A stretch of 15,565 nt of DNA. Source: Syntrophorhabdaceae bacterium PtaU1.Bin034 (GTDB lineage Bacteria; Desulfobacterota_G; Syntrophorhabdia; Syntrophorhabdales; WCHB1-27). Under the pieces are notes generated by a model, which saw only the letters and a list, made by a program, of their open reading frames with translations, ran no database searches and had not been told where the DNA came from. Of the stretch, positions 377 through 15,565 are shown in pieces. Position 1 is the stretch's first letter. The number at the start of each line of letters is the position of its first letter. The stretch spans positions 1 to 15,565 of the forward strand of contig MVRP01000082.1 in assembly GCA_002067405.1 (NCBI GenBank). Direction: 5' to 3'. Both the position numbers and the translations under genes were made by a program.

Positions 377-1375
377 ATGAACCACGCAGTATGGAAAAGA
401 CTTTTTTGCTGCCTGATCGTTTCGTTGGTTTTCATCGGTAGCGCTGTTTGCATTTCCGCGGCTGCGGAAAAGAAGTATCCATCCTCTCCTATAAATATCT
501 ACGGTCCTTTCGCAGCCGGAGGACCTGTGGATACGATCAACCGTGTGTTTGCCAAAAAACTCGAGGCATATTTCGGACACGGCGCAGTCGTAGTCCCACA
601 AAACAAACCGGGAGGAGGAGGCTCTATTTTAGCCTCATACATAGCCAAAAGCGCCCGTCCCGACGGTTACACTCTTGCAAATATAAGCGGCCATCATATA
701 TGTGTTCCTATCCTGCTCGGGACCGGATCATATTCGCTAAAAGATTTCACCATAATCGGCCAGCTGGTCGTATTCCCCTCCGTTCTTGTGGTTCCCGCAG
801 ATTCGCCGTGGAAGACCTTTCAGCAATTTATGGATTATGCAAAAACACACCCCGTAAAATACGGGCATCCGGGCAATGCATCAACCATCTTTCTGCGGGT
901 AGAAAACTTTATTAAGCACTTTGACCTGAAGATGGAAGGCATTCCATTGAAAGGCGATTCGGAAACGGCAACAGCGGTGCTCGGAAAACATGTGGCTGTG
1001 GGGGCCATGTCTGCAGGGACGGCAAAGGGCCTTATGGCGGCCGGAAAAGTGAGAGTTCTTTTCAGCTTTGACAAGCCCACCAGCTTCGGCCTTCCTGCCG
1101 ATACACCGCATCTCGCCGGTGTTCTTCGCGGAGCTGCCTATACGGACATAGAACCCGGTCAGGTGCTTGCCGTCAACAGCAAAACCCCTCCTGCAATCAT
1201 CCGGACCCTGGAGGACGCCTGGAAAGAAATAATGAAGGATCCGGAGTTCCAGAAAACAGTAGCGGACCTCAACCTTGGTCTCGGGTACATGGATGGCAAG
1301 ACTTTTACTGCAAAACTACCGGCCAATATGGCAGTGCTCAAAGAGATGCTGCAGAAATCAGGGCAGCTCAAATAG
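377..1375 (+). CDS. tctC: TctC/Bug-type periplasmic binding protein of a tripartite tricarboxylate transporter
   Basis: This 332-residue protein is the usual length for extracytoplasmic solute receptors of the TTT family, which capture carboxylates or other small organic anions and deliver them to TctA/TctB. A Sec signal peptide is visible: a basic start, a hydrophobic core at about residues 8-24, and a probable cut after the SAAA stretch ending at residue 30. The mature protein opens with the family pattern YPSSPINIYGPFAAGGPVD (residues 34-52), where the GGPVD loop helps bind the ligand carboxylate. The start at 377 follows AAGGAG (365-370) at 6-nt spacing. The membrane components lie about 2.5 kb downstream (3835-5831), separated by two enzyme genes; this interleaving suggests that the enzymes act on the imported compound. 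TTT receptors are very numerous in some genomes, so the ligand cannot be deduced. Confidence 0.93.
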   Translation: MNHAVWKRLFCCLIVSLVFIGSAVCISAAAEKKYPSSPINIYGPFAAGGPVDTINRVFAKKLEAYFGHGAVVVPQNKPGGGGSILASYIAKSARPDGYTLANISGHHICVPILLGTGSYSLKDFTIIGQLVVFPSVLVVPADSPWKTFQQFMDYAKTHPVKYGHPGNASTIFLRVENFIKHFDLKMEGIPLKGDSETATAVLGKHVAVGAMSAGTAKGLMAAGKVRVLFSFDKPTSFGLPADTPHLAGVLRGAAYTDIEPGQVLAVNSKTPPAIIRTLEDAWKEIMKDPEFQKTVADLNLGLGYMDGKTFTAKLPANMAVLKEMLQKSGQLK

Positions 1376-1403
1376 GTTTTTGCTTTCAGAAAAGGAGCAT
1401 GCA

Positions 1404-2576
1404 ATGAAAATCAGCAAGGTGGAGATAATCCCTATAGATATTCCCTACAAGACGCCGTTTCGCGTTTCTTATGGGGGCGTTACCTCCGGGAGCCAGATCA
1501 TACTGAGAATAGTGACTGATGAGGGCGTTGACGGTGTGGGAAGCAGCATCGGCTTTCCAAAAGTAGGCCTCAACCGGGAGGCCGCCATGGCCCAGATGAA
1601 GGGTATTGCCTCAGGTCTTCTCTTGGGTCAGGATCCCTGCAATACGGAGGCGATCTTGAGCCGGCTCGACGTGGTGCTTCCCGGACATTGGCGAATAAAG
1701 GCGCACATCGATTATGCGTTATACGATCTCAAAGGCAAAATACTCAATGTTCCGGTCTATCAGTTGCTGGGTGGACTCTGTAGGGAGAAGATTCCACTGG
1801 AATGGATCGTCATGATGGATGAACCCGAGGCGCAGGCCGAAATGGCGGTGAAATATCTCGCAGCCGGGTTTCACAGCATCAAAATGCATGTGGGCGGCGA
1901 CCCGAAATTGGCGGTCAAGCGGTTCAAAACCGTCCGTGAGGCAGTTGGCCCTGATGTCCCCATTTCGATAGATATGGCGAGTGCCACGGGAACGCCGAGC
2001 CACTGTAACGTCCACGATGCATTGCGGGTTATCGAAGCCATTGATAAATATGACCTTCACTATGCAGAACAACCTGTCACCACTCATGATATAGACGGTT
2101 TTCGAGCCATAAGGAGCCGGACGAAGGTGCCTATTGCGGCTGACGCAAGCGCTGATTCGGTCGGCGAAGCCTATAAGGTGATAAAGCAAGAAGCGGCCGA
2201 TATCTTTCATGCGCTTATGGGAAGAATCGGGGGTTTCAGAAAATCGCTGCAGTTTGCCAACCTGGTTGACGCCGCAAGCCTCGATTATGCCATATGTGTC
2301 CTGGGAAACGGCATTGAACACGCCGCCGGTGCCCACTTTGCCGTATCCCGTGCAAAAAGAGAAAGGATTCTGGATGAGCTCGGCCTTGTTTTCTACCTGT
2401 ACGGGGGGACGGAAACAAAAGAAATTACCGCGGATGTTACAAAAGAAATAAACGGCGCCATAGAAAAGGGTTATTTGTATCCGCCGAAAGGGCCGGGGTT
2501 GGGCATCGAGCTTGACCAGGGTATGGTCGATCGATACCGCGCACCGGACACCAATAAAATTGTGGTGCAGCAATAG
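1404..2576 (+). CDS. Mandelate racemase/muconate lactonizing enzyme family protein (enolase superfamily)
   Basis: This 390-residue protein has the enolase-superfamily layout: an N-terminal capping domain (about 1-115, ending in the ALYDLKGK helix at 105-112) and a C-terminal barrel. The superfamily abstracts a proton alpha to a carboxylate using Mg2+. Likely metal ligands are D190 (SIDMAS), E222 (YAEQP) and D247 (AADAS), at barrel-strand ends in the expected order. The canonical catalytic KxK appears as K160-M161-H162, with His in place of the second Lys, as in some acid-sugar dehydratase branches. C-terminal H306 and H311 lie where the other-face base can sit. The ATG at 1404 is chosen because AAAGGAG (1391-1397) precedes it and similarity to the family begins there; the in-frame upstream ATG at 1275 lies inside tctC. 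The gap from tctC is 28 bp. The substrate is unknown; a hydroxy acid or lactone is plausible. Confidence 0.9.
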   Translation: MKISKVEIIPIDIPYKTPFRVSYGGVTSGSQIILRIVTDEGVDGVGSSIGFPKVGLNREAAMAQMKGIASGLLLGQDPCNTEAILSRLDVVLPGHWRIKAHIDYALYDLKGKILNVPVYQLLGGLCREKIPLEWIVMMDEPEAQAEMAVKYLAAGFHSIKMHVGGDPKLAVKRFKTVREAVGPDVPISIDMASATGTPSHCNVHDALRVIEAIDKYDLHYAEQPVTTHDIDGFRAIRSRTKVPIAADASADSVGEAYKVIKQEAADIFHALMGRIGGFRKSLQFANLVDAASLDYAICVLGNGIEHAAGAHFAVSRAKRERILDELGLVFYLYGGTETKEITADVTKEINGAIEKGYLYPPKGPGLGIELDQGMVDRYRAPDTNKIVVQQ

Positions 2577-2632
2577 ATGAGGCTCAGGCCGTCGGATTGA
2601 AGATGGCCGGAGGACGTTGCCGGAGGAAAAAC

Positions 2633-3760
2633 ATGGCTGTAGATCTACGGGAAAAACATAGACGCTACAAAATAATCAGGGAAAGGATGTCGGCTCAGGG
2701 GCTTGATGCGTTGATTGTGATCAACAGCGCCCAGATAAATGAAAAGGGGTTCGTGAAATACCTGACGAACTACCGGAGCATTCTTTATAACTGCGTCGTT
2801 ATCTTTCCTCTCGACGGCGAGGCCCGGTTATTGGTGCCGAGCCCCGTACAGAAATATTGGGCAGGGCTTCTCGGATGGATCCCCCGTGTAGAGAACCAGG
2901 TTCCCAACCTCGATGAGAGCCTGTCGGGAAGCATCAGGAAAATGGGATTATCAAAGGCGAAGCTGGGCCTTATCAACCGCAGAATCATGCCGGCCCAGAC
3001 TTATCTGACGTTGGTAAAAGAGTTTCCCGATGCATCGATAACCGATGCAACTGCGATAATTGAAGAAACGCGGATGGTGAAGAGCGCAGACGAGCAGGCG
3101 TCGGTAAGAACCACTGCCGGCCTTGCCGACCTTTCCTTCAGGGTGCTCGCCGGAACTCTCAAGCCGGGTGTTACCGAGTGTGATGTCGTTGCCGAGGTTG
3201 ACCGGAGACTTATCAAAGAGGGAGCCGAAGACATTTTTCATCTGGTCTCATCTGAACCGGGCAGCCTGTTTCCTTACGCACCCTCCGCACGCGTAATCGA
3301 GAAGGGTGATACCGTCATGTTCAACACGGAGCTGTCGGGACCGGGTGGCTACTGGATCCAGATGATACGAACGGTGTTCGTCGGTAAGCCAAAACCTGAT
3401 GCTGAACGAATGTACGATGTCCTGGTTGAAATCACGTCAAAGATTCCGGGCCAACTGAAGGCAGGAAGAAGGGTCGGTGATGTGGCGGAATGGGTACGGC
3501 AAGAGATACTCGCTGCAGGCTTCGAAACAGGGGTAAATTTTGGCCACTGTTTGGGCCTGGACGTTGTTGAACGGCCCATTGTTCATGTTAACGAGGAAAC
3601 AACGCTCGAGCCGGGAATGGTAATGACGGTTCATCCCCAGCTTGTTTCTCAGGACAAGGGAACATCCGTATGGCTGGGCGACACGTATCTTATTACCGAA
3701 GGCCCGGCGGAAATACTCACAAAAGTAGATCCGGCGGAAGTGAAAATAATCCCGTGCTGA
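2633..3760 (+). CDS. M24 (creatinase/Xaa-Pro peptidase fold) family protein with degenerate metal site
   Basis: The 375-residue protein has a creatinase/prolidase-type N-terminal domain (about 1-140) and a pita-bread M24 domain (about 150-370). In metallopeptidases of this fold five ligands (Asp, Asp, His, Glu, Glu) bind two metals. Here the first Asp region reads FNTELSGPGG (N231, E233), the second Asp is replaced in YWIQMIRT (Q243/M244), His305 is kept in FGHCLG, the first Glu is H334 in MTVHPQ, and the last Glu is replaced in VWLGDT (G349). A dinuclear peptidase is therefore unlikely. Creatinase shows that the fold can hydrolyse C-N bonds without metal, so a non-metallo hydrolase for a small operon substrate is plausible. 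The ATG at 2633 has GGAGG (2622-2626) 6 nt upstream; an ATG at 2597 in the same frame has no comparable site. Confidence 0.87.
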   Translation: MAVDLREKHRRYKIIRERMSAQGLDALIVINSAQINEKGFVKYLTNYRSILYNCVVIFPLDGEARLLVPSPVQKYWAGLLGWIPRVENQVPNLDESLSGSIRKMGLSKAKLGLINRRIMPAQTYLTLVKEFPDASITDATAIIEETRMVKSADEQASVRTTAGLADLSFRVLAGTLKPGVTECDVVAEVDRRLIKEGAEDIFHLVSSEPGSLFPYAPSARVIEKGDTVMFNTELSGPGGYWIQMIRTVFVGKPKPDAERMYDVLVEITSKIPGQLKAGRRVGDVAEWVRQEILAAGFETGVNFGHCLGLDVVERPIVHVNEETTLEPGMVMTVHPQLVSQDKGTSVWLGDTYLITEGPAEILTKVDPAEVKIIPC

Positions 3761-3790
3761 TTGTGACGGCTCTATAGAGAAACCTGCATC

Positions 3791-3825
3791 AAGCGTAAAG
3801 CGGTGGTAGGGTTGAAAGCGTAAAG
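3791..3825 (+). repeat. 10-bp direct repeat in the M24-tctB spacer
   Basis: AAGCGTAAAG occurs at 3791-3800 and again at 3816-3825, so the copies start 25 bp apart. The second copy overlaps the start of the tctB ribosome-binding region (AAAGAGGT, 3822-3829). The 74-bp spacer holds no gene and no obvious terminator. The repeat could be a local duplication or a protein/RNA site; it is short enough to be chance. Confidence 0.4.
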
Positions 3826-3834
3826 AGGTAGAAC

Positions 3835-4299
3835 ATGAGAAGGCACCAGCTTTGGGCGTCCGTCTTTTGGCTGGCACTGGGTGTGTTTGTTTGCCTTTAT
3901 TCTTATTGGCGTGGCTTAGGTCATATTAGAAACCCCGGACCCGGCTTGTTTCCGTTTTGCCTTGGAATAGCCTTTTTCATCATATCGGGTGTTATCCTCA
4001 TCCAAATTCTTATTAAAGGCGAGGTGAGTGAGACCGAAAAAGAAAAAGAGGGCGGCAATTTTCTCAACGTAATTGTCGCATTAGTCGTTCTGTTTGCCTA
4101 TGCACTTCTCCTTGAAGTGATAGGCTACATACTGATCACGTTAGCAGCAATGGCTGTCCTGTTCAGGATCGGAGGTTATAAGAAAACAATTCCGATACTG
4201 GGCTACTCGGCTGCGATCGCAGTCTTCACCTACTTGTTTTTCACATATCTTGGGGTGCAGTTGCCACCCGGGGTCCTCCGGCTCCCGGGTCTTTACTGA
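3835..4299 (+). CDS. tctB: TctB-type small membrane subunit of a tripartite tricarboxylate transporter
   Basis: A 154-residue, highly hydrophobic protein with five probable membrane segments (about 7-25, 41-60, 76-93, 94-111 and 119-139). This matches TctB, the small and poorly conserved subunit that partners TctA. The stretch NPGPGLFPF (33-41) after the first helix resembles the conserved 'pGpgffP' signature of the family. A charged cytoplasmic or periplasmic loop (ETEKEKE, 66-72) separates the helices. The start follows AAAGAGGT at 3822-3829. It ends 17 bp before tctA, as in most TTT operons, which supports the identification more strongly than the sequence alone. Confidence 0.88.
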   Translation: MRRHQLWASVFWLALGVFVCLYSYWRGLGHIRNPGPGLFPFCLGIAFFIISGVILIQILIKGEVSETEKEKEGGNFLNVIVALVVLFAYALLLEVIGYILITLAAMAVLFRIGGYKKTIPILGYSAAIAVFTYLFFTYLGVQLPPGVLRLPGLY

Positions 4300-4316
4300 G
4301 AGGAAAGGGAGATGCG

Positions 4317-5831
4317 ATGGATATCATAAGCGGGCTTCTCGGGGGCTTTCAGACTATTCTGCAGCCTGCAAATTTTTTGTACTGTTTCATAGGTGTTTTT
4401 ATTGGGACCCTTATCGGCGTGCTTCCCGGTATCGGCCCCATTGGTGCAATGTCGATTCTTTTGCCCACCACCTTCGGCCTGTCTCCTGCTGCATCGATTA
4501 TCATGCTCGCCGGCATCTACTACGGATCGATGTATGGCGGCTCTACCACCTCGATTCTGGTCAATATTCCCGGGGAAGCCGCCTCCGTTATTACCTGTCT
4601 TGACGGTTATGAAATGGCAAAGCAGGGCAGGGCGGGTCCTGCCCTCGGCATATCGGCCTTCGGCTCCTTCATCGGAGGGACCTTCAGTGTCATGTGCCTC
4701 ATGTTTCTTGTCGCTCCTCTCGCTGAAGTTGCTTTGAAATTCGGCCCGGCGGAATTCACTGCTTTAATGTGTCTGAGCATGACGGTTCTCACCTATCTTG
4801 CGAGTCGTTCCATGCTCCGCGCTCTTTTGATGGTAGTGGCAGGATTGCTGGTAGGCACGATCGGCAACGATCCCATTACCGCTATTCCCCGCTTCACCTT
4901 CGGTTCGGCCTATCTTCTTGATGGGATTGGCCTTGTCTCTGTAGCCATGGGCCTTTTTGGCATCTCCGAGGTTCTTCTTAATATAGAGAACCCCGAGAAA
5001 AGAATAATGCTTAAGACCAAAATCAAGAACATCCTTCCCAACCGGGAAGATTGGAAACGCAGTTATGGACCCATTGGCCGAGGTTCGATACTTGGCTTTG
5101 TGCTGGGCATTCTCCCCGGAGGAGGGGGGATTATTGCCTCTTTTCTTTCGTATACCATGGAGAAGAAGCTTTCCAAACACCCGGAGGGGTTCGGCAAAGG
5201 ATCGATAGAAGGTGTCGCCGGCCCCGAAACTGCCAATAATTCTGCCTCAGGCGGCGGGTTTGTCCCCCTCCTTGCCCTTGGTATTCCCCCGAACGCCATC
5301 ATGGGCCTTCTTTTGGGCGCCCTCATTATCCATGGAATCAGTCCGGGGCCTCTGCTTGTCGCCGAACATCCGGAGATATTCTGGGGGGTTATTGCAAGTA
5401 TGTACATCGGTAATGTAATGCTTGTTCTTCTCAACCTCCCTCTGATAAGTCTTTGGGTCAGGGTTTTAAAAGTGCCTTATCGAATACTCATGCCTGTCAT
5501 TCTCCTCTGCTGCCTTATAGGCGCTTATGCTTCAAACAACATGGCCCTCGATATTGTCGCCATGCTTATCTTCGGGATCCTGGGCTACGCTCTCCGGAAG
5601 CTGGACTACGAGCCGGCACCGTTTCTTCTCGCCATGGTCCTTGGCCCTATTCTGGAGACGAACTTCAGGAACGCCTTGAAAATGTCGGACGGAAGTCTCT
5701 TGATCTTTGTTCAAAAACCAATTTCTGCGGTTATTTTAGGTATTTGCGTTCTTCTCTTTCTTTCAACCGGTCTTTCCTCATACCGGAAAACGAAGACGAG
5801 AATCATAGAAGGGGGAGAAAACAACACATAA
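4317..5831 (+). CDS. tctA: TctA-type large membrane subunit of a tripartite tricarboxylate transporter
   Basis: A 504-residue polytopic membrane protein of standard TctA length. Two glycine/proline-rich repeats mark the family: GVLPGIGPIGAMSILLP near residue 34, followed by YYGSMYGGSTTSILVNIPGE, and a second repeat GILPGGGGIIASF near residue 264. These form the substrate and cation path for import of a carboxylate delivered by TctC. The ATG at 4317 is preceded by AGGAAAGGGAG (4301-4311); an ATG at 4312 is out of frame. Together with the binding protein at 377 and tctB the transporter is complete. No terminator is obvious directly after the TAA, and the next gene begins 186 bp later. Confidence 0.95.
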   Translation: MDIISGLLGGFQTILQPANFLYCFIGVFIGTLIGVLPGIGPIGAMSILLPTTFGLSPAASIIMLAGIYYGSMYGGSTTSILVNIPGEAASVITCLDGYEMAKQGRAGPALGISAFGSFIGGTFSVMCLMFLVAPLAEVALKFGPAEFTALMCLSMTVLTYLASRSMLRALLMVVAGLLVGTIGNDPITAIPRFTFGSAYLLDGIGLVSVAMGLFGISEVLLNIENPEKRIMLKTKIKNILPNREDWKRSYGPIGRGSILGFVLGILPGGGGIIASFLSYTMEKKLSKHPEGFGKGSIEGVAGPETANNSASGGGFVPLLALGIPPNAIMGLLLGALIIHGISPGPLLVAEHPEIFWGVIASMYIGNVMLVLLNLPLISLWVRVLKVPYRILMPVILLCCLIGAYASNNMALDIVAMLIFGILGYALRKLDYEPAPFLLAMVLGPILETNFRNALKMSDGSLLIFVQKPISAVILGICVLLFLSTGLSSYRKTKTRIIEGGENNT

Positions 5832-6017: not shown

Positions 6018-6434
6018 ATGAAGAAAACCTTGGAAAAATTGGCGTTACTGATTCTTCTTACCCTCTCTTTTCTTGCCCCTGTTGTTGTCCTCGCTGCGGG
6101 AGACGACGTACCCAGGATCAGCATACAGGAACTGAAAAAGATGATGGACAACAAGATTGACGTCGTCATTCTCGACGCCCAGCCGAAACGCGCTTACGAC
6201 AAGGGACATATCAAGGGCGCTATCTCCTTTCCCTGGGCGCTGAAATTGAATGAAGAGCAAATCGCAGCCCTGCCCAAGGGGAAGCCGATCATCGTGTACT
6301 GCGACTGCGGTCCGGGAGAAACGGATAGCGTGAGTGTTGCCGAACGGTTGCTCGATCTGGGGTTTAATGACGTGAAAGTACTACAGGATCCTTCGATACG
6401 GGGATGGAAAGAAGCAGGTTTCCCCATAGAATAA
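6018..6434 (+). CDS. Exported rhodanese-domain sulfurtransferase
   Basis: This 138-residue protein has a Sec signal peptide (KK start, hydrophobic core about 8-26, probable cut after VLAA) and a single rhodanese domain from about residue 33. Family hallmarks are visible: ILDAQPKRAYDKGHIKGAIS (51-70), the strand-loop IIVYCDCGPGETDS (91-104) with presumed catalytic Cys95, and the ending RGWKEAGFPI. Rhodaneses carry persulfide sulfur on the active-site Cys. Here a second Cys (C97) lies two residues away inside the loop, which is unusual and could allow a disulfide or persulfide relay. The start is set by GGAGGT at 6007-6012. It lies 45 bp upstream of the cytochrome selenoprotein gene, and all three proteins of the unit carry export signals, so a periplasmic sulfur or selenium relay is plausible but inferred. 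Confidence 0.9.
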   Translation: MKKTLEKLALLILLTLSFLAPVVVLAAGDDVPRISIQELKKMMDNKIDVVILDAQPKRAYDKGHIKGAISFPWALKLNEEQIAALPKGKPIIVYCDCGPGETDSVSVAERLLDLGFNDVKVLQDPSIRGWKEAGFPIE

Positions 6435-6479
6435 AATGGGCCGTCACCGGACGGAGGTATTGAAAGGAGGCATGACAAA

Positions 6480-7607
6480 TTGGATCAACGACATTCATTG
6501 CCAGCGATGCTTCTGGTCTTTCTTCTCCTGTTTCTGCCGTATTTCCCCCTCTATGCAGCGGAGCAGGGTTACGCTGGTTCCAAGGCCTGTCTCACGTGCC
6601 ACGACAATCTCTCACGCGACTGGCCTCAAAGCAGGCACGCGCGGGCCTTTGACAGCCTGAAGAAATCAGGCCAGGAAAATCTGCCCGGCTGTGTCCGGTG
6701 CCACGTCACCGGCTACGGCCTGACAGGCGGCTTTATTGATCAGGAGCTCACCCCGGGACTTGCAGGGGTACAGTGCGAAGAGTGCCACGGGGCTGGTAAG
6801 GCTCACGTGACGGCGCCTGACAGGCACCGGCTGGTTGCCAAGCCGCAGGCCGAAACCTGCCGACGATGCCACACCAGCGGGCAGGACCCAAACTTTGACT
6901 ACGCCGGGAAAGTACGAGGAGTCCATAAAACCACCGGCATTGTACGCACGACAGAGAGAAAAAGCATCCTTACTGCCACCCCTGCCCTTGTCGATCTGGG
7001 TATGGTCGACGAAGGCATTCCGGCGCGTGCGACCGTTACCGTCCAGAATAACAGCGATACCACGGTCGTCATCACCGATTTACGCACCAATTGAGCATGC
7101 ACCGAGAGTGTGCTCGGGAAGCACACCTTGGCCCCTCACGAGAAAACATCGCTCACCATCATTTTTAATACGGCGGGTCTTCCGGGTCCATTTCGTAAGA
7201 CCGCGACATTGGGTATCAAAACCCCGGATCAGGGGGAGCTGGAAGTGACTATCCAGGGCACCGTGAAGGAAGCACCGTCTGCGAAGATCAAGGTGACCCC
7301 GAGACGCATCGATCTGGGCGGCGTAGTGGAAGGCACTGCGGTGCGGCGGAAGGTGACGGTCACGAATACGGGGATACTGCCGCTTACCATAACCCGGATC
7401 TTTATGAAGAGCACCGGTGTTGCGGTGCATGCAGCGTCGGCCCAACAACCGGTCATCGTTCCTGCGGGCAGTGAGCAGACGATAGAATGCGTCATCACCG
7501 CAGGCAAACCGAAAGGGCAGTACCAGGACTCGATGATACTGGAGTCCAACGCAAAAAACGCGACGAAGGGAGGGTACGTGATCATGGTGCGTAACGACGG
7601 CGGATAG
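6480..7607 (+). CDS. Tetraheme cytochrome c fused to DUF1573-type domain, candidate selenoprotein (Sec at TGA 7092-7094)
   Basis: Read through the TGA, this is one 375-residue protein. Residues 1-27 form a signal peptide. Four CxxCH haem sites follow at C37-H41, C71-H75, C99-H103 and C127-H131, as in cytochrome c554-like proteins. Two Ig-like beta domains come next: about 160-265 (DUF1573-like, 'VDLGMVDEG...VTVQNNSD') and about 268-375 ('IDLGGVVEG...VTVTNTG'). DUF1573 proteins typically carry an S-C-G-C-T motif just before 'LAPxE...FNTAG'; here it reads N204-U205-A206-C207-T208, so the TGA sits exactly on the first Cys. The same frame continues the domain without any slip, arguing against a broken gene. 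Start TTG 6480 lies 9 nt after AAAGGAGG; an ATG at 6472 is too close to it and out of frame. Expected in the periplasm, it could pass electrons between haems and a Sec/Cys pair. A nonsense mutation is the alternative. Confidence 0.85.
7092..7094 (+). other. In-frame TGA predicted to encode selenocysteine (U-A-C motif)
   Basis: TGA lies between DLRTN and ACTESVLGKHTLAPHEK, both halves of one DUF1573-like domain in the same frame. The family position is Cys, and Cys/Sec exchange at a redox Cys is the usual signature of selenoproteins. A SECIS-like hairpin begins 7 nt downstream, and the next gene also has a recoded TGA. Confidence 0.85.
7102..7131 (+). promoter_or_regulatory. Candidate bacterial SECIS hairpin for the cytochrome-DUF1573 selenoprotein
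   Basis: A perfect 7-bp stem, GTGTGCT (7108-7114) with AGCACAC (7120-7126), closes the loop CGGGA (7115-7119). Below a single bulged A (7107) five more pairs can form between 7102-7106 and 7127-7131, one of them G-U. The loop starts 21 nt after the TGA and has G in its second position. Bacterial SECIS elements sit in the coding sequence just after UGA, with G near the start of the apical loop, and are bound by SelB. Confidence 0.8.
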
Positions 7608-7664: not shown

Positions 7665-9500
7665 ATGAAACAACGAATCAATGTGTTGCTGGCAGTCATG
7701 GCGGCAGCGGGCTTTATGATGGCCCTTTGCGCGGTGCCCGAGACCCACGCTGCGGTAACGCTGGAAGTGATGAACCCCCGCGGTGAGATCGAGGCGTTGC
7801 CGAGCCTCGCACCCTCGGCCCGGATTGCAGACCTGGCAGGGAAGAAGATCGGCATTTACTGGATAGGGAAACAGGGCGGAAACAACTTTTGGGATGAAAT
7901 TGAAGTGCTGATCAAGGCGAAGTTTCCCCAGACGCAGGTTGTCCGCTACAGCGGTCCTTTTGACCTCGGGCCCGATATGGCCGGCAAAATCGCAAAGGAG
8001 TGTGACGCCTTTATCTACGGCGTCGGTGACTGAGGCTCATGCACATGGGCCGGCGTGTCCGGCCTTATAAGATTGGAAAAGCTCGGCAAACCGGGAGTTT
8101 ACCTTGTTACCGACAACTTCGGTGAAGACGCGAGATTGTCGGCCGAAGATAACTTAATGCCAAAGATCCGCGTGGTGACCGTTCCCGCCAAAGACTATTA
8201 TATGAAACGGATAAGCCGGGAGCAGGTCAAGCCTGTGGCCGAAGGGGCGTTCGATGCCATTATTGTGGCGCTGACAAAGCCGCTTACCGCGGAGGAATCA
8301 CACCCCGCGACGAAACATGTGAAGACCGACGGGACCATGAAGGTTACGGCGGAGACGTATGAGGCCGCGCTCGAGAAGTTCAATCAACTCTTTCTGGACA
8401 ACCACTGGGGAAGCGGTTTGCCATTGATTCCGCCCACTGCCGAACGGGTAAAATGGATGCTCAAGGGTACTAGCCGTTCGCCTAAAGAGGTGATCGGCAC
8501 GGTTCCCCCGAAGAACGGGATCGCCACAATCGAGAAAATAGCCGTGAACGCGGTGATGGCAGGGGCACGACCCGAATATCTGCCGGTGATCATTGCGGCA
8601 ATGGAAGCGGTGGCCGACAAAAAATTCGATCTTTTTCATATGCAGACCTCGACGGGATCGTTCAGCCTTCTCATTCAAGTGAATGGTCCCATCGCAAAAG
8701 AGATCGAGATGCAGTCGGGAATCGGTTTCCTTGGCTACGGATGGCGTGCCAACAATACGATCGGTCATGCCGTACGACTGAGCCTGATCAACCTCGGCCA
8801 CGTGTGGCCGGGTGAAAATGATATGGGGCTTATTGGACGGCCGTCTTCACACACGTTCTTCACCTATTCCGAAAACGAATCGCTCAGCCCCTGGGAGCCT
8901 TTCCATGTGTCCCTCGGGTACAAGCCGGAAGATAGCTGCGTCACGGTAGCCACCATGAATGCATACACCAACCTTGGCAGCATTACGACCTTTGGAGGCG
9001 GCGCAGTTCTCACCTGGAACGTCGATTCAGTGTTCAAGAGAATGATCGACTTTATGAAACAGGACAGGGCATTCATGACGATCTGGAAACGGGGCTCCGC
9101 CATTTCGAGCCCGAGAAGAAATTCTTTCTTCATTCCCCCCGAGTTGGCGATCGAGCTTGACCGGCGCGGTTATACGAAGAAGAAACTGCAGCAGTACTTC
9201 TACGAGCAAACGAGCATCCCCTACGAACAACTGACGCCGAAGGAAATAGAGTCCGTTAAACGCAGAATTGACGCCGGGGAAATCAGCGCCGATCGTATAC
9301 CCGTCTTTAAAGACGCCCTTAAACCGGGCGGAAAAATCCCTCTCATCGACCGGCCCGAGGACAACGATTTCATTGTCACAGGAGGCTTTCCCGCGTATGT
9401 ATTCGGGACTTTCTATTTTTCCAGGCCCCTCTACTCCGAATTGTCCATCATGACCAAGAAGGTAACCGGGGCAACACTCACGAAATCAGGCCGGAAATAG
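7665..9500 (+). CDS. UGSC-family selenoprotein, exported (Sec at TGA 8031-8033)
   Basis: Read through the TGA, this is a 611-residue protein. Residues 1-29 are a signal peptide (cut near THA-A). About 50-240 is a Rossmann-like UGSC domain: 'KKIGIYWIG', then 'CDAFIYGVGD-U123-G124-S125-C126-T', then 'LEKLGKPGVYLVT'. D-U-G-S-C-T is the defining motif of the UGSC (seleno)protein family, so the TGA is explained exactly. A second large conserved domain follows (about 240-590) with GLPLIPPT (251-258), AVNAVMAGARPEYLPV (around 293-308) and RANNTIGHAVRL (361-372). From memory this is a typical partner of UGSC domains; its activity is unknown to me. The start has GAGGAGGT (7652-7659) 5 nt upstream of ATG. 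It is last in the three-gene unit, 57 bp after the cytochrome gene and before a hairpin. A Sec-Cys thiol redox role outside the cytoplasm is inferred. Confidence 0.93.
8031..8033 (+). other. In-frame TGA predicted to encode selenocysteine (UGSC motif)
   Basis: TGA GGC TCA TGC reads U-G-S-C, preceded by GVGD and followed by TWAGV. This is the motif that names the family. The downstream frame stays open to 9500 and has no ribosome-binding site or ATG near the TGA that would suggest a separate gene. Confidence 0.94.
8047..8065 (+). promoter_or_regulatory. Candidate bacterial SECIS hairpin for the UGSC selenoprotein
   Basis: A perfect 6-bp stem, GGCCGG (8048-8053) with CCGGCC (8059-8064), closes the 5-nt loop CGTGT (8054-8058); a G-U pair (8047/8065) can extend it. 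The loop starts 21 nt after the TGA with G second, the same geometry as the hairpin in the upstream gene. Confidence 0.82.
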
Positions 9501-9649: not shown

Positions 9650-9725
9650 TTTTTTCGATCATCGCGAATAGATTTGTTTGAAAAAAGACTGTCCTGAGAG
9701 ATTTGTGACAGGGTCGAGGAAACAG

Positions 9726-10001
9726 ATGGAAGCAAATGAGCAGATACGTTTGCGTATTTCAGAGGAAATAGAACGAATCATGGAGAATCGTGGGATTCGC
9801 AGGGAGGACGTGCAAGCGGCTATCCACCATGGCGAGACGACCGGGGAGAAGTTCATCAAACGCTTTTCCGGACGATCTCTCACATCTTTCAGGCCTGGCA
9901 GGGTTACCTACTGGGTGGAATACAGCCGGGTCGATGATGAGTATCATGTTCATACGGCCTATTCCCACAGGATGGAGATGAAGAGAGGGCCTGACGGATG
10001 A
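9726..10001 (+). CDS. Small conserved-looking protein of unknown function heading the radical SAM cluster
   Basis: A 91-residue soluble protein with a helical N-terminal half ('RLRISEEIERIMENRGIRRE', then 'DVQAAIHHGETTGEKFI') and a beta-rich, basic C-terminal half ('SFRPGRVTYWVEYSRVDDEYHVHTAYSHRMEM'). I do not recognise a named family with confidence. It has no Cys and three clustered His (H86 region and two in IHHGE). The ATG at 9726 is preferred because GAGGA (9716-9720) lies 5 nt upstream; a TTG at 9678 in frame has no such site. Its TGA overlaps the ATG of the redox-protein gene in an ATGA arrangement, so the two are translationally coupled and probably act together. Confidence 0.75.
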   Translation: MEANEQIRLRISEEIERIMENRGIRREDVQAAIHHGETTGEKFIKRFSGRSLTSFRPGRVTYWVEYSRVDDEYHVHTAYSHRMEMKRGPDG

Positions 10002-10231: not shown

Positions 10232-11641
10232 ATGACCGCAAATGAAACGGAAAGCTTATGCCCCGTTTGCCTCCGTAAAATCAAGGCAAAACGGGTGAGC
10301 GAGGCTGACCGTGTATTTCTTGTGAAGGAGTGTGCGGACCACGGTTATTTTAAGACCGTCATATGGTGTGGCGAGCCGTCCATGGGTGAATGGCAAAGAC
10401 CGAAAGATGTGGTCCACCCTAACCTGGCCTATGGGGCTGTGGAAAGGGGATGCCCTTTCGACTGCGGTCTTTGCGAGGCTCACGAGCAGCTCCCCTGTTC
10501 GGTCTTGCTCGAGGTGACAGACCGATGCAACCTGCACTGTGCCGTCTGTTTCGCCGACTCCGGCCGCGGCAAGGCGGAAGAACCGTCATTGGAGAGGATT
10601 TCCTGGCTGCTGGAGCGGGCCATTGCCGCTGCAGGCCCAAGCAATATCCAACTATCAGGAGGTGAGCCCACCTTACGGGACGACCTTCCGGAGATTGTGG
10701 AGGTCGCACGGCGGACCGGCTATTCATTCATTCAGGTCAACACCAACGGTCTGCGTCTTGCCTCTGACAGGGACTATGGAAGGCGTCTTGCAGATGCGGG
10801 GCTCTCATCGGTCTTCCTTCAGTTCGACGGTGTTGATGACACGGTCTATCATTCGCTGAGAGGGAGAAGCCTGCTGGATGAGAAGCTCCGGGCTGTCAGG
10901 AATTGCGGAGAGGCAGGTCTTGGAGTCGTTCTCGTCCCTACACTTGTGAAAGGTGTGAATACTGATTCCATTGGAGCCGTAGTGCGGCAGGGGCTCGGAC
11001 TGGCACCTACAGTGCGCGGCATCCATTTTCAACCGGTGAGTTATTTCGGCCGTTTTCCGGCGGAACGGTGCGACGAAGGCCGTTTTACACTCCCCGAACT
11101 CATGAGGTGCCTTGAGGAACAGACAGACGGCCTTGTCAGGGTGCGCGATTTTTCCCCTCCGGGCACCGAGCACGCCCATTGTTCCTTCCACGCCACCTAT
11201 ATACATTCTGCCGAAGGGATCTTAAGGCCGATCGGAGCGGGGCAGGGAGGCAGTTGCTGCTCGGGTAACATCGGTACGGGAGGAGTCAACAAAACCATAG
11301 AGACCGTGTCGCGCCGCTGGAGTCTGCCGTCCTCGGCGCTGGCTTTTGATCGTTTCCTGAAGTCGGGGAAGACCGTTTGCTGCGGAGAGGGCAGCCCTGA
11401 CTTGGCCAGGGTCGAAGGCGTTCTCGACCTGGATGTCTTTCTTCAGGAGGCTGCCGTCAGGAGCTTTACGATTTCTGCAATGGCATTTCAGGACGTGGAC
11501 AACCTTGATCTGGAGCGGCTCCGGGGTTGCTGCATATCGGTCATATCTCCGGACGGCAGCCTCGTCCCGTTCTGCGCTTACAACCTCACGAGCAGGAGAG
11601 GGGAGAGCCTCTACCGGCAGAGGAACGGCGCGAAGTCGTGA
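10232..11641 (+). CDS. trsS: TrsS-like radical SAM protein (Cys form)
   Basis: The 469-residue protein has a core radical SAM motif C99-N-L-H-C103-A-V-C106 binding the [4Fe-4S] cluster that cleaves S-adenosylmethionine, and a GGEPT SAM-binding loop at 143-147. It is Cys-rich outside the core: LCPVC (10-13), C34, GCPFDCGLC (73-81), C89, C317, SCC (342-343), VCC (383-384) and GCC (433-434), plus PFCAYNLT at the C terminus. The N-terminal CPxC / GCPFDCGLC and C-terminal 'MAFQD...NLDLERLR' blocks match, from memory, the family called radical SAM (seleno)protein TrsS, some members of which use selenocysteine; here no internal TGA is present. Reaction and substrate are unknown. The ATG at 10232 has a weak AAGGCG upstream. 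Its TGA overlaps the GTG start of the ligase gene. A generic MoaA-like radical SAM enzyme is the alternative. Confidence 0.87.
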   Translation: MTANETESLCPVCLRKIKAKRVSEADRVFLVKECADHGYFKTVIWCGEPSMGEWQRPKDVVHPNLAYGAVERGCPFDCGLCEAHEQLPCSVLLEVTDRCNLHCAVCFADSGRGKAEEPSLERISWLLERAIAAAGPSNIQLSGGEPTLRDDLPEIVEVARRTGYSFIQVNTNGLRLASDRDYGRRLADAGLSSVFLQFDGVDDTVYHSLRGRSLLDEKLRAVRNCGEAGLGVVLVPTLVKGVNTDSIGAVVRQGLGLAPTVRGIHFQPVSYFGRFPAERCDEGRFTLPELMRCLEEQTDGLVRVRDFSPPGTEHAHCSFHATYIHSAEGILRPIGAGQGGSCCSGNIGTGGVNKTIETVSRRWSLPSSALAFDRFLKSGKTVCCGEGSPDLARVEGVLDLDVFLQEAAVRSFTISAMAFQDVDNLDLERLRGCCISVISPDGSLVPFCAYNLTSRRGESLYRQRNGAKS

Positions 11642-12987
11642 TCGTCGGCATCACCCCCTTGGATACATGGATCAGAAACAAGGCCTGCATCAGCCCTGGT
11701 CTTGCCGGTAGCTCTTTTCTGAAAGCACTTGAGGACTACCAGCTTCGTCGATTGAATGAGACCATCGAGTATGCCCGGCTCAACACGGCCTTTTACCGCC
11801 GCCATCTGGCCGCTTTACCCACTGCACCTCTGTCCGCTCTTTCCGATATCACTCGAATCCCCTTTACCTTTCCGTCGGATCTCGCCGGGAATCCTTACCG
11901 TTTTCTGGCGGTTCACCAGGACGATGTAGCCCGGATCGTCACTCTCAGATCGTCAGGGAGTACCGGGGAGCCCAAACGGCTCTTTTTCACCGAAGATGAC
12001 CTGGAGCTCACGGTGGACTTCTTTCATCACGGTATGTCAACACTTGTGCGGCCGGGTCAGAGGGTAGCGGTTCTCCTTCCAGGTGAAAGGCCTGACAGTG
12101 TGGGGGACCTTCTTGCTCGGGGTCTCAAAAGAATGGATGTGCAGACCCTCGTCTACGGTCCCGTTTCAGATCCTGCCCATGCCGCTCGCGCAATTGCTTC
12201 CTTCGGTGCCCATTGTCTTGTCGGCATTCCCACCCAGGTCCTTGCGGTAGCCCGTTCGAGCGCCGGGGCCGCAGCCGGAAAAGGCGGCATAGAGAGCGTA
12301 CTCCTAAGCACGGACTACGTCCCGCAAGCTATCGCGAGGACTCTGGAAAAGGTTTGGGGCTGCCGGGTATTCAACCACTATGGCATGACCGAAATGGGGC
12401 TTGGCGGCGGGGTCGACTGTGAAGCCCTTAACGGATACCATCTAAGAGAAGCTGACTTCTACTTTGAGGTGATCGATCATGAGACAGGAGAGGTGTGTCC
12501 CGATGGGGCGATAGGCGAGGTCGTCTTTACCACCCTTACGAGACGGGGCATGCCTCTCGTGCGATACAGAACGGGTGACATTGCCCGGATCATCCCCGAA
12601 CCATGTCCCTGCGGCACCATTCTCAGACGTTTGCAGCATGTCAGGGGCAGGTGGGACGGCACGGTTCGTCTGGGTCCCGGCTGCTCTCTTACCCTCTCGG
12701 ATATGGACGAGGCACTTTTCAAGCTTCCCGACCTGCTCGACTACCGGGTCACGGTATCAAGTCGGGGAGGCGGGGGATTCCGGCTTCACATCGATGTACA
12801 CCGGGCGGAGAGCGGCAGCCTCCCCGACCGAGAAGTACTTCAAAAGCTGAATGAGGTAGACGCGATACGGGAAGCGATTGATTTTGACATGCTCGACACC
12901 CCTACCGTGCGTTTCTCGGAAGACGGGCGCTGGACCACGACCGGCGTTGCAAAGAGAAAGATCGTCCAAGGAATCGTCCAAGGATAA
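11638..12987 (+). CDS. PaaK-like AMP-dependent CoA ligase, DVU_1553-like
   Basis: A 449-residue adenylate-forming enzyme of phenylacetate-CoA ligase size. Motifs are visible in order: phosphate loop SSGSTGEPK (105-113), NHYGMTEMG (246-254), YRTGD (310-314), and the C-terminal lid ending GVAKRK (436-441) with the likely catalytic Lys. These enzymes activate a carboxylate as acyl-AMP and transfer it to CoA. A PCPCG element (322-326) may bind metal, as in other PaaK relatives. The frame is open further upstream, but the GTG at 11638 is preferred: it overlaps the radical SAM stop (GTGA) and is preceded by AGAGGAA (about 11619-11625). From memory this matches the 'DVU_1553 family AMP-dependent CoA ligase' that accompanies TrsS. 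The substrate is unknown; it may be a protein- or cofactor-linked carboxylate rather than a catabolic acid. Confidence 0.88.
   Translation: MIVGITPLDTWIRNKACISPGLAGSSFLKALEDYQLRRLNETIEYARLNTAFYRRHLAALPTAPLSALSDITRIPFTFPSDLAGNPYRFLAVHQDDVARIVTLRSSGSTGEPKRLFFTEDDLELTVDFFHHGMSTLVRPGQRVAVLLPGERPDSVGDLLARGLKRMDVQTLVYGPVSDPAHAARAIASFGAHCLVGIPTQVLAVARSSAGAAAGKGGIESVLLSTDYVPQAIARTLEKVWGCRVFNHYGMTEMGLGGGVDCEALNGYHLREADFYFEVIDHETGEVCPDGAIGEVVFTTLTRRGMPLVRYRTGDIARIIPEPCPCGTILRRLQHVRGRWDGTVRLGPGCSLTLSDMDEALFKLPDLLDYRVTVSSRGGGGFRLHIDVHRAESGSLPDREVLQKLNEVDAIREAIDFDMLDTPTVRFSEDGRWTTTGVAKRKIVQGIVQG
12961..12984 (+). repeat. Perfect tandem 12-bp duplication at the 3' end of the ligase gene
   Basis: ATCGTCCAAGGA occurs twice back to back (12961-12972 and 12973-12984), directly before the TAA. 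It encodes IVQG-IVQG as the last eight residues. This is an in-frame, apparently recent, slippage-type duplication. Confidence 0.9.
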
Positions 12988-13326: not shown

Positions 13327-15318
13327 ATGAGATACGCGGAGACCGGTTATAACCTAGAAATTGATTTAGCCACAGGGAACATCGAACGTGTGGAAACTGA
13401 CCCGAAAACGATGGAAACCCATCTTGGAGGGTTAGGCACAAGCGTCAAGATCCACTGGGACAGGGTCGGGCCGGAGGTCGGGCCTTTTGACCCTGAGAAC
13501 CTTTTGATTTTCAGCACAGGTGTTCTCAATGCGACACCTGCTTTCAGCGCTAATCGTACCGTTGTCACTTTCGTCAGTCCTCAGTCGCATTTACTGGCAT
13601 ATCCGATGATGGGGGGGTTCTGGTCGGCGGAATTGAAGTACGCGGGCTATGACAAGGTGATCATTCGCAACAAGTCCGAAAAGTGGGTCTATATCTGGAT
13701 ACACAATGACAAGGTAGAGTTACGCGACGCCTCTCATTTGAAAGGGCGAGGCGCCCTTGAAACCCAGGACCTCATCCGCCAGGAATTGAAGCAGCCTCAT
13801 GCTCAGGTGGCTGCGATCGGACCGGCAGGCGAAAACAAGTGTTTCACCGCCTCCATCGAGCAGGGCAGGTCAAGCGCAAGCCGGCTTGGTGGCGGTGCGG
13901 TCATGGGGGACAAGAAGGTAAAGGCTATAGCCGTTCGCGGAACCAAGAATGACATCAACCTTGCAGATGGCGAAGCTTTTATGAAAGAGATGAAAGGCGT
14001 GATGGAATATATCAACTTCCGGAACGCAAACCCCATACCTGACGTCATGACAATTCTTTCAGGGATCGGGTCACCCCAGGAGATGGTGCATACCGACGAG
14101 AAGTGGCACACCGAAAACTTCATGTGGGGGAATGCCCGTACCAGGAGAAGGGACTTTTGGGACGAAAAGATCGCCGTGGAATGGCCGAGGACCCAGTTGG
14201 AGGGCATCAAACGGTTAATAAGCTGCTTTAACTGCCCGCAGCACTGCGGCGCATTGATCTCGTACAAGGACACGCCGAGATACATGGCGAAGTGCTTCGG
14301 GAAGCTTACCTATGCAATGGCGGCTTACGTCGATAGCATGGATTTTGCTTGGAGAACCCTGCAAAAAGCCACGGAGTACGGGTTCGATTCATTCTCGACC
14401 CCCCAGATCATAGCCTTCGCCGTGGAGCTTATTGAGGCCGGCATCCTGACTGACAAAGATCTTCAAGGGACCTCTACCTATCCGGCCTGCCCGTCAGACA
14501 AAGAGGGGAGATTCCACTGGTTGCTCGACAGGGTGGCTCACCGGGAAGGCATCGGCAACATCCTGGCGGACGGCGTGTGGTATGCGGCCCGCGCGATCGG
14601 CAACGGTGCGGAGGAATTTGACCATAATACCATCAAGCGACACGAGCAGCTCCCTCTCAAATTAGGAATGCTTGACCCTCTTTATTTTCTCATGTACTCG
14701 ACAAACGAGAAAATAAGCATTACCCAGATCGAAGGCCAGTGGCCCCAGTCGGCCTTTCCTACGATGGAGCAGAAAGAAAACTTTGTGAAGGACTGGCCCC
14801 AGCTTCCCGATCCGAAGTTCAAGCAGTATTTGCTGGACTGGGACCTTCGGGGAGAGAAGGCAATACCCTACTACCCGACGCCTCAAATAGCCAGTGAAAT
14901 AGTAGACTGGATGGAGATGCTCCACAATATCGACGATGCCTGCTGTGTGTGCTGCGGTATGTCGGGATTCTGCCTGAAACCGCCTTACCACATTCACAAT
15001 TATCCGAGAATCATTTCAGCAGCGACCGGGCTCGATCTGGACGAAGCCGGACTGAAGAAGATAGTCAATAGAAACCGTAACCTGCACCGGGCCTTCAATA
15101 ACAGAAATGGTATGAGGAGGACCGATGAGAAGCCGCCACTGGATCACTGGAAGAAAAGATTTCCGGACCTTGAGGAAGAGCTCCTGTCTACGTATTACGA
15201 GTTTAAGGGATGGAATATGAACGGTATTCCAACTAAAGAAAGACTGCAGGAACTGGATCTGGGCTACGTTGCCGAAGACTTAGAAAAGAGAGGTATATTG
15301 AAAGATGGCCAAGATTAA
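13327..15318 (+). CDS. BamB-like tungsten-containing oxidoreductase (aldehyde:ferredoxin oxidoreductase family)
   Basis: The 663-residue protein belongs to the AOR family, which binds tungsten through two pterin cofactors plus one [4Fe-4S] cluster. From memory it closely follows BamB, the active-site subunit of class II benzoyl-CoA reductase, along its whole length, including start 'RYAETGYNLEIDL', 'MMGGFW..ELKYAGYDK' (94-110) and 'HNYPRIISA'. Fe-S ligands are C300, C303 and C307 (CFNCPQHC), with a fourth expected in the Cys-rich CCVCCGMSGFC (539-549). C323 (AKCF) aligns with the BamB tungsten-ligand Cys. The catalytic segment reads QEMVHTDEKWH (251-261), retaining E252 and H261. AAGGAG (13315-13320) precedes the ATG. 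A BamC-like gene overlaps its end. True benzoyl-CoA reductase needs further Bam subunits not seen here, so another aldehyde or aromatic substrate is possible. Confidence 0.9.
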   Translation: MRYAETGYNLEIDLATGNIERVETDPKTMETHLGGLGTSVKIHWDRVGPEVGPFDPENLLIFSTGVLNATPAFSANRTVVTFVSPQSHLLAYPMMGGFWSAELKYAGYDKVIIRNKSEKWVYIWIHNDKVELRDASHLKGRGALETQDLIRQELKQPHAQVAAIGPAGENKCFTASIEQGRSSASRLGGGAVMGDKKVKAIAVRGTKNDINLADGEAFMKEMKGVMEYINFRNANPIPDVMTILSGIGSPQEMVHTDEKWHTENFMWGNARTRRRDFWDEKIAVEWPRTQLEGIKRLISCFNCPQHCGALISYKDTPRYMAKCFGKLTYAMAAYVDSMDFAWRTLQKATEYGFDSFSTPQIIAFAVELIEAGILTDKDLQGTSTYPACPSDKEGRFHWLLDRVAHREGIGNILADGVWYAARAIGNGAEEFDHNTIKRHEQLPLKLGMLDPLYFLMYSTNEKISITQIEGQWPQSAFPTMEQKENFVKDWPQLPDPKFKQYLLDWDLRGEKAIPYYPTPQIASEIVDWMEMLHNIDDACCVCCGMSGFCLKPPYHIHNYPRIISAATGLDLDEAGLKKIVNRNRNLHRAFNNRNGMRRTDEKPPLDHWKKRFPDLEEELLSTYYEFKGWNMNGIPTKERLQELDLGYVAEDLEKRGILKDGQD

Positions 15319-15565
15319 GAAGAAAGTCAAGGTAATCAAGATCGATGCGGATAAATGCAATGGTTGCCGGGGATGCGAGGTAGTCTGCTCCGCCTTCCAC
15401 GCCAACCCTCGATACAGCAGCAATAATACGGCGAGGTCGCGCATCCAGATTATTCGCCACCCGATAAAAGACATATGGCTTCCTGTATTTGCCGGTGAGT
15501 ACACACCCGCCGAATGCATGGGCAGAGACCAGTACATCATCGACGGTAAGGAATACGACGAGTGC
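15305..15565 (+). CDS. BamC-like ferredoxin-type Fe-S subunit (3' truncated by window end)
   Basis: Eighty-seven residues are visible and the frame is still open. A ferredoxin-type motif C18-x2-C21-x2-C24-x3-C28 (KCNGCRGCEVVC) is followed by 'SAFHANPRYSSNNTARSRIQ' and 'AECMGRDQYIIDGKEYDEC'. This layout matches the electron-transfer subunit that accompanies BamB-type AOR proteins, carrying electrons between the tungsten subunit and other partners in the cytoplasm. The ATG at 15305 overlaps the last 14 bp of the BamB-like gene in another frame and is preceded by GAGAGG (about 15286-15291), indicating translational coupling. Remaining Cys motifs and the full length lie beyond the window. Confidence 0.88.
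   Translation, partial: MAKIKKKVKVIKIDADKCNGCRGCEVVCSAFHANPRYSSNNTARSRIQIIRHPIKDIWLPVFAGEYTPAECMGRDQYIIDGKEYDEC

Follow-up and report, generated by a model that had tools for sequence, protein, structure and literature searches.

Introduction

Selenocysteine (Sec) in domain DUF1573 has been on record since 2008, when family OS_HP2 (pfam07610, motif UxC) was tabulated, the data set of that study holding 2 members with Sec and 354 with Cys (PMC2398784, Table 2); a DUF1573 selenoprotein with the motif UGC is listed in PMC9312934 and PMC13188914, and the portions of these three reports cited here give no function for it. A Sec-containing multihaem protein of the Cytochrome_C554 family (PF13435), the haem family of the protein described below, is listed in PMC9312934 and named ExtKL in PMC13188914; a Sec-containing c-type cytochrome of the octahaem tetrathionate-reductase type (TTR-type) is listed in the latter as well. 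The table rows of these two cytochromes make no mention of DUF1573. An UshA-like (seleno)protein (NF041198) has, by name, an UshA-like body (COG0737) and a CxU motif (PMC9312934). For bacterial SECIS elements the constraints are a loop of 3–9 nt with G in loop position 1 or 2, a stem of 4–16 bp, a distance of 16–37 nt from the UGA to the loop, and an energy of at most −7.5 (PMC13188914).

The window, i.e., the whole stretch of 15,565 nucleotides analysed here (Syntrophorhabdaceae bacterium PtaU1.Bin034, contig MVRP01000082.1), contains at 6480–7607 (+ strand) what is probably a selenoprotein gene: its product would combine a tetrahaem c554-type cytochrome with a DUF1573 domain carrying Sec205-x-Cys207, the UGA is likely decoded by way of SelB and a hairpin, and a redox relay is proposed. 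The initial annotation had regarded Sec in DUF1573 and Sec in a multihaem cytochrome as new; the former had already been tabulated (PMC2398784, PMC9312934, PMC13188914) and the latter is represented by ExtKL and the octahaem TTR-type protein (PMC9312934, PMC13188914), so that neither claim can be upheld. Sec is thus known both in DUF1573 and with the Cytochrome_C554 haem type, and only the partner domain is new. As far as the open-access literature was searched, what appears to be new is the DUF1573 clade with a fused haem domain, together with the gene block around it.

Results and Discussion

Read-through gene and its domains

The frame at 6480–7607 (+) runs from TTG 6480 to TAG 7605–7607 with one in-frame TGA (7092–7094, +) and, read through this codon, gives 375 residues with U205; a likely ribosome-binding site, AAAGGAGG (6463–6470, +), was picked by eye 9 nt upstream of the TTG. 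Four CxxCH motifs (6588–6602, 6690–6704, 6774–6788 and 6858–6872, +; residues 37, 71, 99 and 127) lie in the PF13435 half of the gene, and haem would be expected to be attached to all four; Cytochrome_C554 (PF13435) was matched at residues 36–104 with 64.2 bits (Pfam cut-off 20.8), which with the four motifs assigns this half to the c554 type. DUF1573 (PF07610; 6987–7265, +; residues 170–262) gave 82.2 bits against a gathering cut-off of 26.1; it carries U205-A-C207 and spans the TGA, and the codon therefore lies inside one continuous domain, as had been annotated. A second Ig-like domain of the choice-of-anchor D type (7242–7505, +; residues 255–342; NF012200, 56.5 bits, cut-off 45) was predicted as mostly confident beta strands. 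The N-terminus is hydrophobic and signal-sequence-like by eye, and the protein is likely exported to the periplasm. In the structure model the DUF1573 part was confident and the cytochrome part poor (pLDDT mostly 36–60), for which reason a Sec–haem distance cannot be given; most of the best 50 Foldseek matches were Ig-like proteins, at query TM-scores of 0.19–0.33, and they are silent on redox function.

Comparison with described families

OS_HP2: The NCBIfam model NF041425 gave 51.2 bits with the window protein (cut-off 100); in the phylum of G435, one of the relatives described below, it was found in 150 of 395 genomes at E 1e-12, 44 of them above the cut-off, G435 itself being below. Fifty OS_HP2 loci were read (30 best matches and 20 chosen for long frames with a TGA), of which 48 were interpretable, L106 (no motif found) and L115 being left out. 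One TGA was present in 16 of the first 20 listed matches and none in the other 4; Sec was read in 25 and Cys in 3 of the 30 best matches, and Sec in 20/20 of the chosen set. CxxCH was present in none of the 48 readable loci. When 24 chosen OS_HP2 sequences and six of the window clade were aligned, the Sec columns coincided (27 U, 3 C) and the second Cys of C-x-C/U-x-C was present in 30/30 rows; the placing of the TGA at the first Cys of a C-x-C motif, made in the initial annotation, is borne out, U205 standing there together with the 24 OS_HP2 rows and five clade relatives. In a tree of the same 30 sequences the window clade formed its own branch (support 100/99). The coincident columns and the separate branching indicate a known site in a new, haem-coupled branch: domain, Sec column, U-x-C with second Cys and the existence of Cys forms are shared with OS_HP2, whereas the window clade has U-A-C in place of U-G-C, is tied to a tetrahaem cytochrome and branches separately.

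Haem proteins: At E 0.001 the window protein matched six NCBIfam families, and the ExtKL model NF040886 was not one of them. The UshA-like model NF041198 gave 121.5 bits (cut-off 275) through the C-terminal haem part only, its last 119 profile positions matching the window haem domain; its Cys-form relatives P0024 and P0025 have PCGC and CxxCH on one chain and no Pfam DUF1573. The haem domain is similar to cytochrome c554 (1bvb, E 1.2e-9) and to OcwA (6i5b, E 8.9e-16; PMC6703420), the best match being confined to residues 29–136, with none over the DUF1573 part.

Relatives and the TGA codon

Six relatives were found with the whole protein as query; since this query contains the haem motifs, the sample is to some extent biased towards sequences coupled to a cytochrome. 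In 7/7 sequences read as DNA across the site (window, L074, L001, L075, L076, L072 and L142; six of them codon-aligned, the seventh being G657/L142) the codon was TGA, never TAA or TAG, and all seven read U-A-C-T. Identity between the window and L074 proteins was 48% upstream and 52% downstream of the TGA; L001, from the genome scan, was 38% identical over residues 4–370 with a TGA in the equivalent position. Cytochrome and DUF1573 are fused in 3/7 sequences (window, G435, 50% identical, and G001) and split into neighbouring genes in 4/7 (G337, G428, G063 and, in the phylum of G013, G657; G013 is the genome of L012, titled Thermodesulfovibrionia MAG), and fusion in some with adjacency in others is the pattern expected of parts that work together. 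The fusion is real and recurrent, being found as DNA in the window, G435 and G001, and also in the 14 database heads described below. In G445 the cytochrome gene is present and a DUF1573 gene begins, on a contig that stops before the Sec site; the similarity of the other matches (such as G391, G706 and the 46 remaining loci among the 47 from the genome scan) is due to haem motifs and has no bearing on this site.

The clade is rare. In the phylum of G010, 3/395 genomes matched at E 1e-30, often with just five candidates scored per genome, G337 and G063 carrying the Sec domain; a further search gave 1/198 genomes, again G063. The numbers elsewhere were as follows: class of G337, 3/46 genomes at E 1e-20, with the Sec domain in all three; class of G063, 1/5 genomes; phylum of G001, 3/9 genomes at E 1e-20, with the Sec domain in G001 only; phylum of G013, 3/295 genomes, with the Sec domain in G657 only. 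Viral contigs and plasmids, both searched, yielded no relatives.

Database proteins: The whole-protein search gave 70 matches, 14 of which (P0003–P0015 and P0017, known as protein sequences) are heads ending exactly one residue before U; the profile search with the DUF1573 part, in which scoring was limited to the 7,995 candidates with the most words in common, gave 100 matches, 24 of which are tails beginning just after U. Heads and tails are stored separately, mostly as unnamed or hypothetical proteins, and are likely the halves of such selenoprotein genes, split by gene callers at the TGA. Tail P0087 is 96.3% identical to the window tail and tail P0108 (Syntrophorhabdaceae MAG) 85.4%; P0103, a Syntrophorhabdaceae entry, is 99% identical to the G337 protein. 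Relatives that end at this TGA, which according to the initial annotation would speak against Sec, exist as gene calls only; in the seven sequences read as DNA, protein similarity goes on beyond the TGA.

Cys forms: Among the 100 profile matches the motif [SN]CACT occurred in 32 and CGC[TA] in 8. In the 42 matches of at least 200 residues the aligned site was Cys in 38, Trp in 3 and Ala in 1, and the second Cys was kept in 40; one Cys form, P0102, is 41% identical to the G337 protein. Homologues with Cys or TGA at residue 205, which were to be looked for, are therefore both at hand. A motif search of the 70 whole-protein matches revealed no Cys form of the cytochrome–DUF1573 fusion; P0073 was the sole match in a region search with residues 150–375, the Cys forms having come from the profile search. 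The three Trp matches (P0085, P0093 and P0099; SWACT or SWGCT) sit on JGI contigs of 973–1,559 bases, and translation of a TGA as Trp by a code-4 gene caller is suspected, a real TGG being possible. P0175, with Ala at the aligned site, has CGCT elsewhere and is likely misaligned.

Sec machinery: SelA was matched in 5/5 relatives searched (G435, G428, G337, G063 and G001), four above the cut-off, the SelA of G435 being seemingly split across two contigs; SelB was above the cut-off in 5/5 relatives searched (G001, G657, G445, G435 and G063; three members in common with the SelA set), the match in G435 covering the first 263 of 581 positions. tRNA-Sec was above the gathering score in 3/5 relatives (G428, G001 and G337) and below it in G063 and G435; matches below this score mean little, because matches at E 0.001 occur in 14/14 control genomes.

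SECIS-like hairpin

The hairpin at 7108–7126 (+) has a 7-bp stem and a 5-nt loop, CGGGA, that begins 20 nt past the TGA, and it folds with −18.6 kcal/mol (core alone −9.6); in loop length, stem length, loop sequence, distance and energy it satisfies the constraints given above for bacterial SECIS elements (model per PMC13188914). By energy alone it is modestly better than shuffled sequences (z −2.08; 8/200 shuffles fold equally well); it is strongly backed by covariation and by a stem scan. The 51 nt from each of the seven TGA codons onward were aligned without gaps, the stem occupying columns 17–23/29–35. All 49/49 stem cells are paired; four of the seven pairs are altered on both sides (shuffle mean 1.6; 4 reached by 11/500 shuffles) and three are invariant. 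The covariation score was reached by 0/500 shuffles and by 0 of six slid versions, the paired percentage by 0/500 and the count of additional pair types by 43/500. When the six codon-aligned sequences were scanned, the 6-bp core was the best paired among 3,780 stems; one other stem has more double-change cells (8), yet is paired in 26/36 cells. An Rfam search gave two sub-threshold, unrelated matches; Rfam is not known to include a bacterial SECIS family. The annotation of a SECIS-like hairpin in the right place thus agrees with what was found.

Neighbouring genes

Rhodanese (6018–6434, +): The product has a hydrophobic N-terminus and the motif YCDCGPG (Pfam Rhodanese, 58 bits, cut-off 22.2). 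With the model of the CxU rhodanese selenoprotein, NF041203, it gave 67.5 bits, below the cut-off of 115, and its YCDC is the Cys counterpart of the CxU motif. A rhodanese gene lies upstream of the cytochrome gene in 5/6 relatives (L001, L074, L075, L076 and L142), with YCDCGPG retained in the first four; it was not found at L072.

UGSC-family protein (7665–9500, +): The gene encodes a predicted selenoprotein of 611 residues with a hydrophobic N-terminus and U123 in GDUGSC, the in-frame TGA being at 8031–8033 (+). The score with PF24696 (90.3 bits, cut-off 25) and the GDUGSC motif place it in the UGSC family, a domain unlike the cytochrome–DUF1573 protein; with NCBIfam NF041046 it gave 80.9, under the cut-off of 125, and the C-terminal ca. 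400 residues are without a Pfam match. The L074 homologue is 62% identical with a TGA in the equivalent position. A SECIS-like stem at 8047–8065 (+; 7 bp, loop CGUGU, at the same distance from its TGA as that of 7108–7126) is the centroid structure, whereas the minimum-energy fold differs, and shuffled sequences fold as well as this region does (z −0.52). In L076 the UGSC gene misfits this stem (energy +12.1) and has its own hairpin slightly further downstream, so that the same stem geometry is confined to the UGSC genes of window, L074 and L075. L076 and L142 have two UGSC-like matches each near the DUF1573 gene, the nearer of the two being distant in sequence (28–31% identical).

Gene order: A UGSC gene with a Sec-type TGA is present in window, L074, L075, L076 and L142. 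The order rhodanese, cytochrome, DUF1573, UGSC is found in window, L074, L076 and L142; in L075 the UGSC gene lies upstream of the rhodanese, L001 has rhodanese and fusion, its 5.6-kb contig yielding no UGSC match, and L072 has cytochrome and DUF1573 only. All four elements occur together in four relatives, one of them from another phylum. Selenoprotein genes that share an operon often act in one pathway (PMC13188914).

Decoding of the TGA

Sec is very probably inserted at TGA 7092, a call strongly supported by the conserved TGA, the Cys homologues, the covarying SECIS-like hairpin, the Sec machinery of the relatives and the adjacent Sec-type UGSC gene. Were the TGA an ordinary stop instead, or a mutation that inactivates the gene, a cytochrome of 204 residues would be made and the remainder would be a separate or dead frame. 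Gene callers do treat the codon in this manner, as the 14 heads among 70 matches and the 24 tails among 100 show, and TGA is the stop codon of four ORFs in the window; nevertheless, neither TAA nor TAG takes its place in any of the seven sequences, coding similarity is about as high downstream as upstream, the Cys homologues are continuous and the covarying hairpin keeps a fixed distance from the TGA. Furthermore, the break would fall inside DUF1573, leaving a tail that starts in mid-domain without a signal-like stretch, and no good ribosome-binding site was seen by eye before GTG 7110. An ordinary stop or decayed gene was rejected on account of the conserved TGA, the continued similarity and the covarying hairpin, and is very improbable. 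Reading of UGA throughout the genome as another amino acid, e.g., Trp, would likewise leave the frame open, and 3 of the 42 longer database relatives have Trp at the site; the M24 peptidase, TctB, the 9678 ORF and TrsS of the window nevertheless end in TGA, the aligned residue is mostly Cys or another TGA, and a hairpin lies downstream of the codon. These four stops, the Cys homologues and the hairpin led to the rejection of genome-wide recoding, which has next to no probability.

Proposed function

Sec205-x-Cys207 would be the redox-active site of the DUF1573 domain, TGA 7092 being decoded by SelB through hairpin 7108–7126. The haems would carry electrons between the cytochrome pool of the cell and the Sec205–Cys207 pair (selenenylsulfide/selenol–thiol), whose exchange partners would be thiols, persulfides, or the rhodanese and the Sec of the UGSC protein; electron flow in the reductive direction, from haem through Sec to the partner (UGSC and/or rhodanese), is favoured. 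All parts of the block look exported by eye, and all look redox-active. A periplasmic haem/Sec-x-Cys relay of this kind is suggested by domain content, fusion and neighbourhood, and is offered as possible though doubtful; that it would be a new type of relay, in which multihaem cytochromes drive Sec-x-Cys on an Ig-like DUF1573 and thereby power UGSC and an exported rhodanese, is a speculative and rather unlikely extension. If it is true, a conserved block in at least two phyla would form a direct link from the respiratory haem pool to selenium and sulfur chemistry outside the cytoplasm. A haem-joined clade beside a second selenoprotein gene leads to the testable idea that Sec-x-Cys exchanges electrons with haem, and hints at what the UGSC family might receive; gene calls split such proteins at the TGA.

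The protein may also be a selenoprotein with no haem–Sec relay, DUF1573 serving as an Ig-like scaffold whose Sec-x-Cys captures an electrophile or binds a metal, the cytochrome providing no more than an anchor or protection. The resemblance of the DUF1573 fold to Ig-like scaffold domains, at low TM-scores, and the lack of CxxCH in the 48 readable OS_HP2 loci are consistent with this; the tetrahaem cytochrome fused or adjacent in all seven sequences (obtained with a haem-containing query) and the rhodanese and UGSC neighbours in most of them point the other way, and such a scaffold is unlikely, though with a real chance of being correct. In the opposite direction of flow, a thiol, persulfide or selenium compound supplied by way of the rhodanese would give electrons or sulfur to Sec–Cys, which would pass electrons to the haems. 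Sulfur-oxidising c-type cytochromes are established, and the rhodanese gene comes first in five of the six relatives; on the other hand, besides the rhodanese the window proteins scanned gave no match to a sulfur-oxidation family, and oxidative flow is judged improbable, though well within consideration.

Other genes in the window

A tripartite tricarboxylate transporter set lies upstream of the selenoprotein genes at 377–5831, where TctC, an enzyme nearest muconate cycloisomerases (below cut-off), an M24 peptidase, TctB and TctA were recognised. Downstream, an ORF of 107 residues (9678–10001), whose match to NF045663 (oxidoreductase/dicluster-binding protein) is limited to the final 101 of the 759 profile positions, is perhaps a detached or decayed C-terminus. 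It is followed at 10232–12987 by a TrsS-type radical SAM protein (630 bits, read without a TGA) and a DVU_1553-family AMP-dependent ligase, and at 13327–15565 by an aldehyde ferredoxin oxidoreductase and an iron–sulfur-type protein (weak matches) that is cut by the window end.
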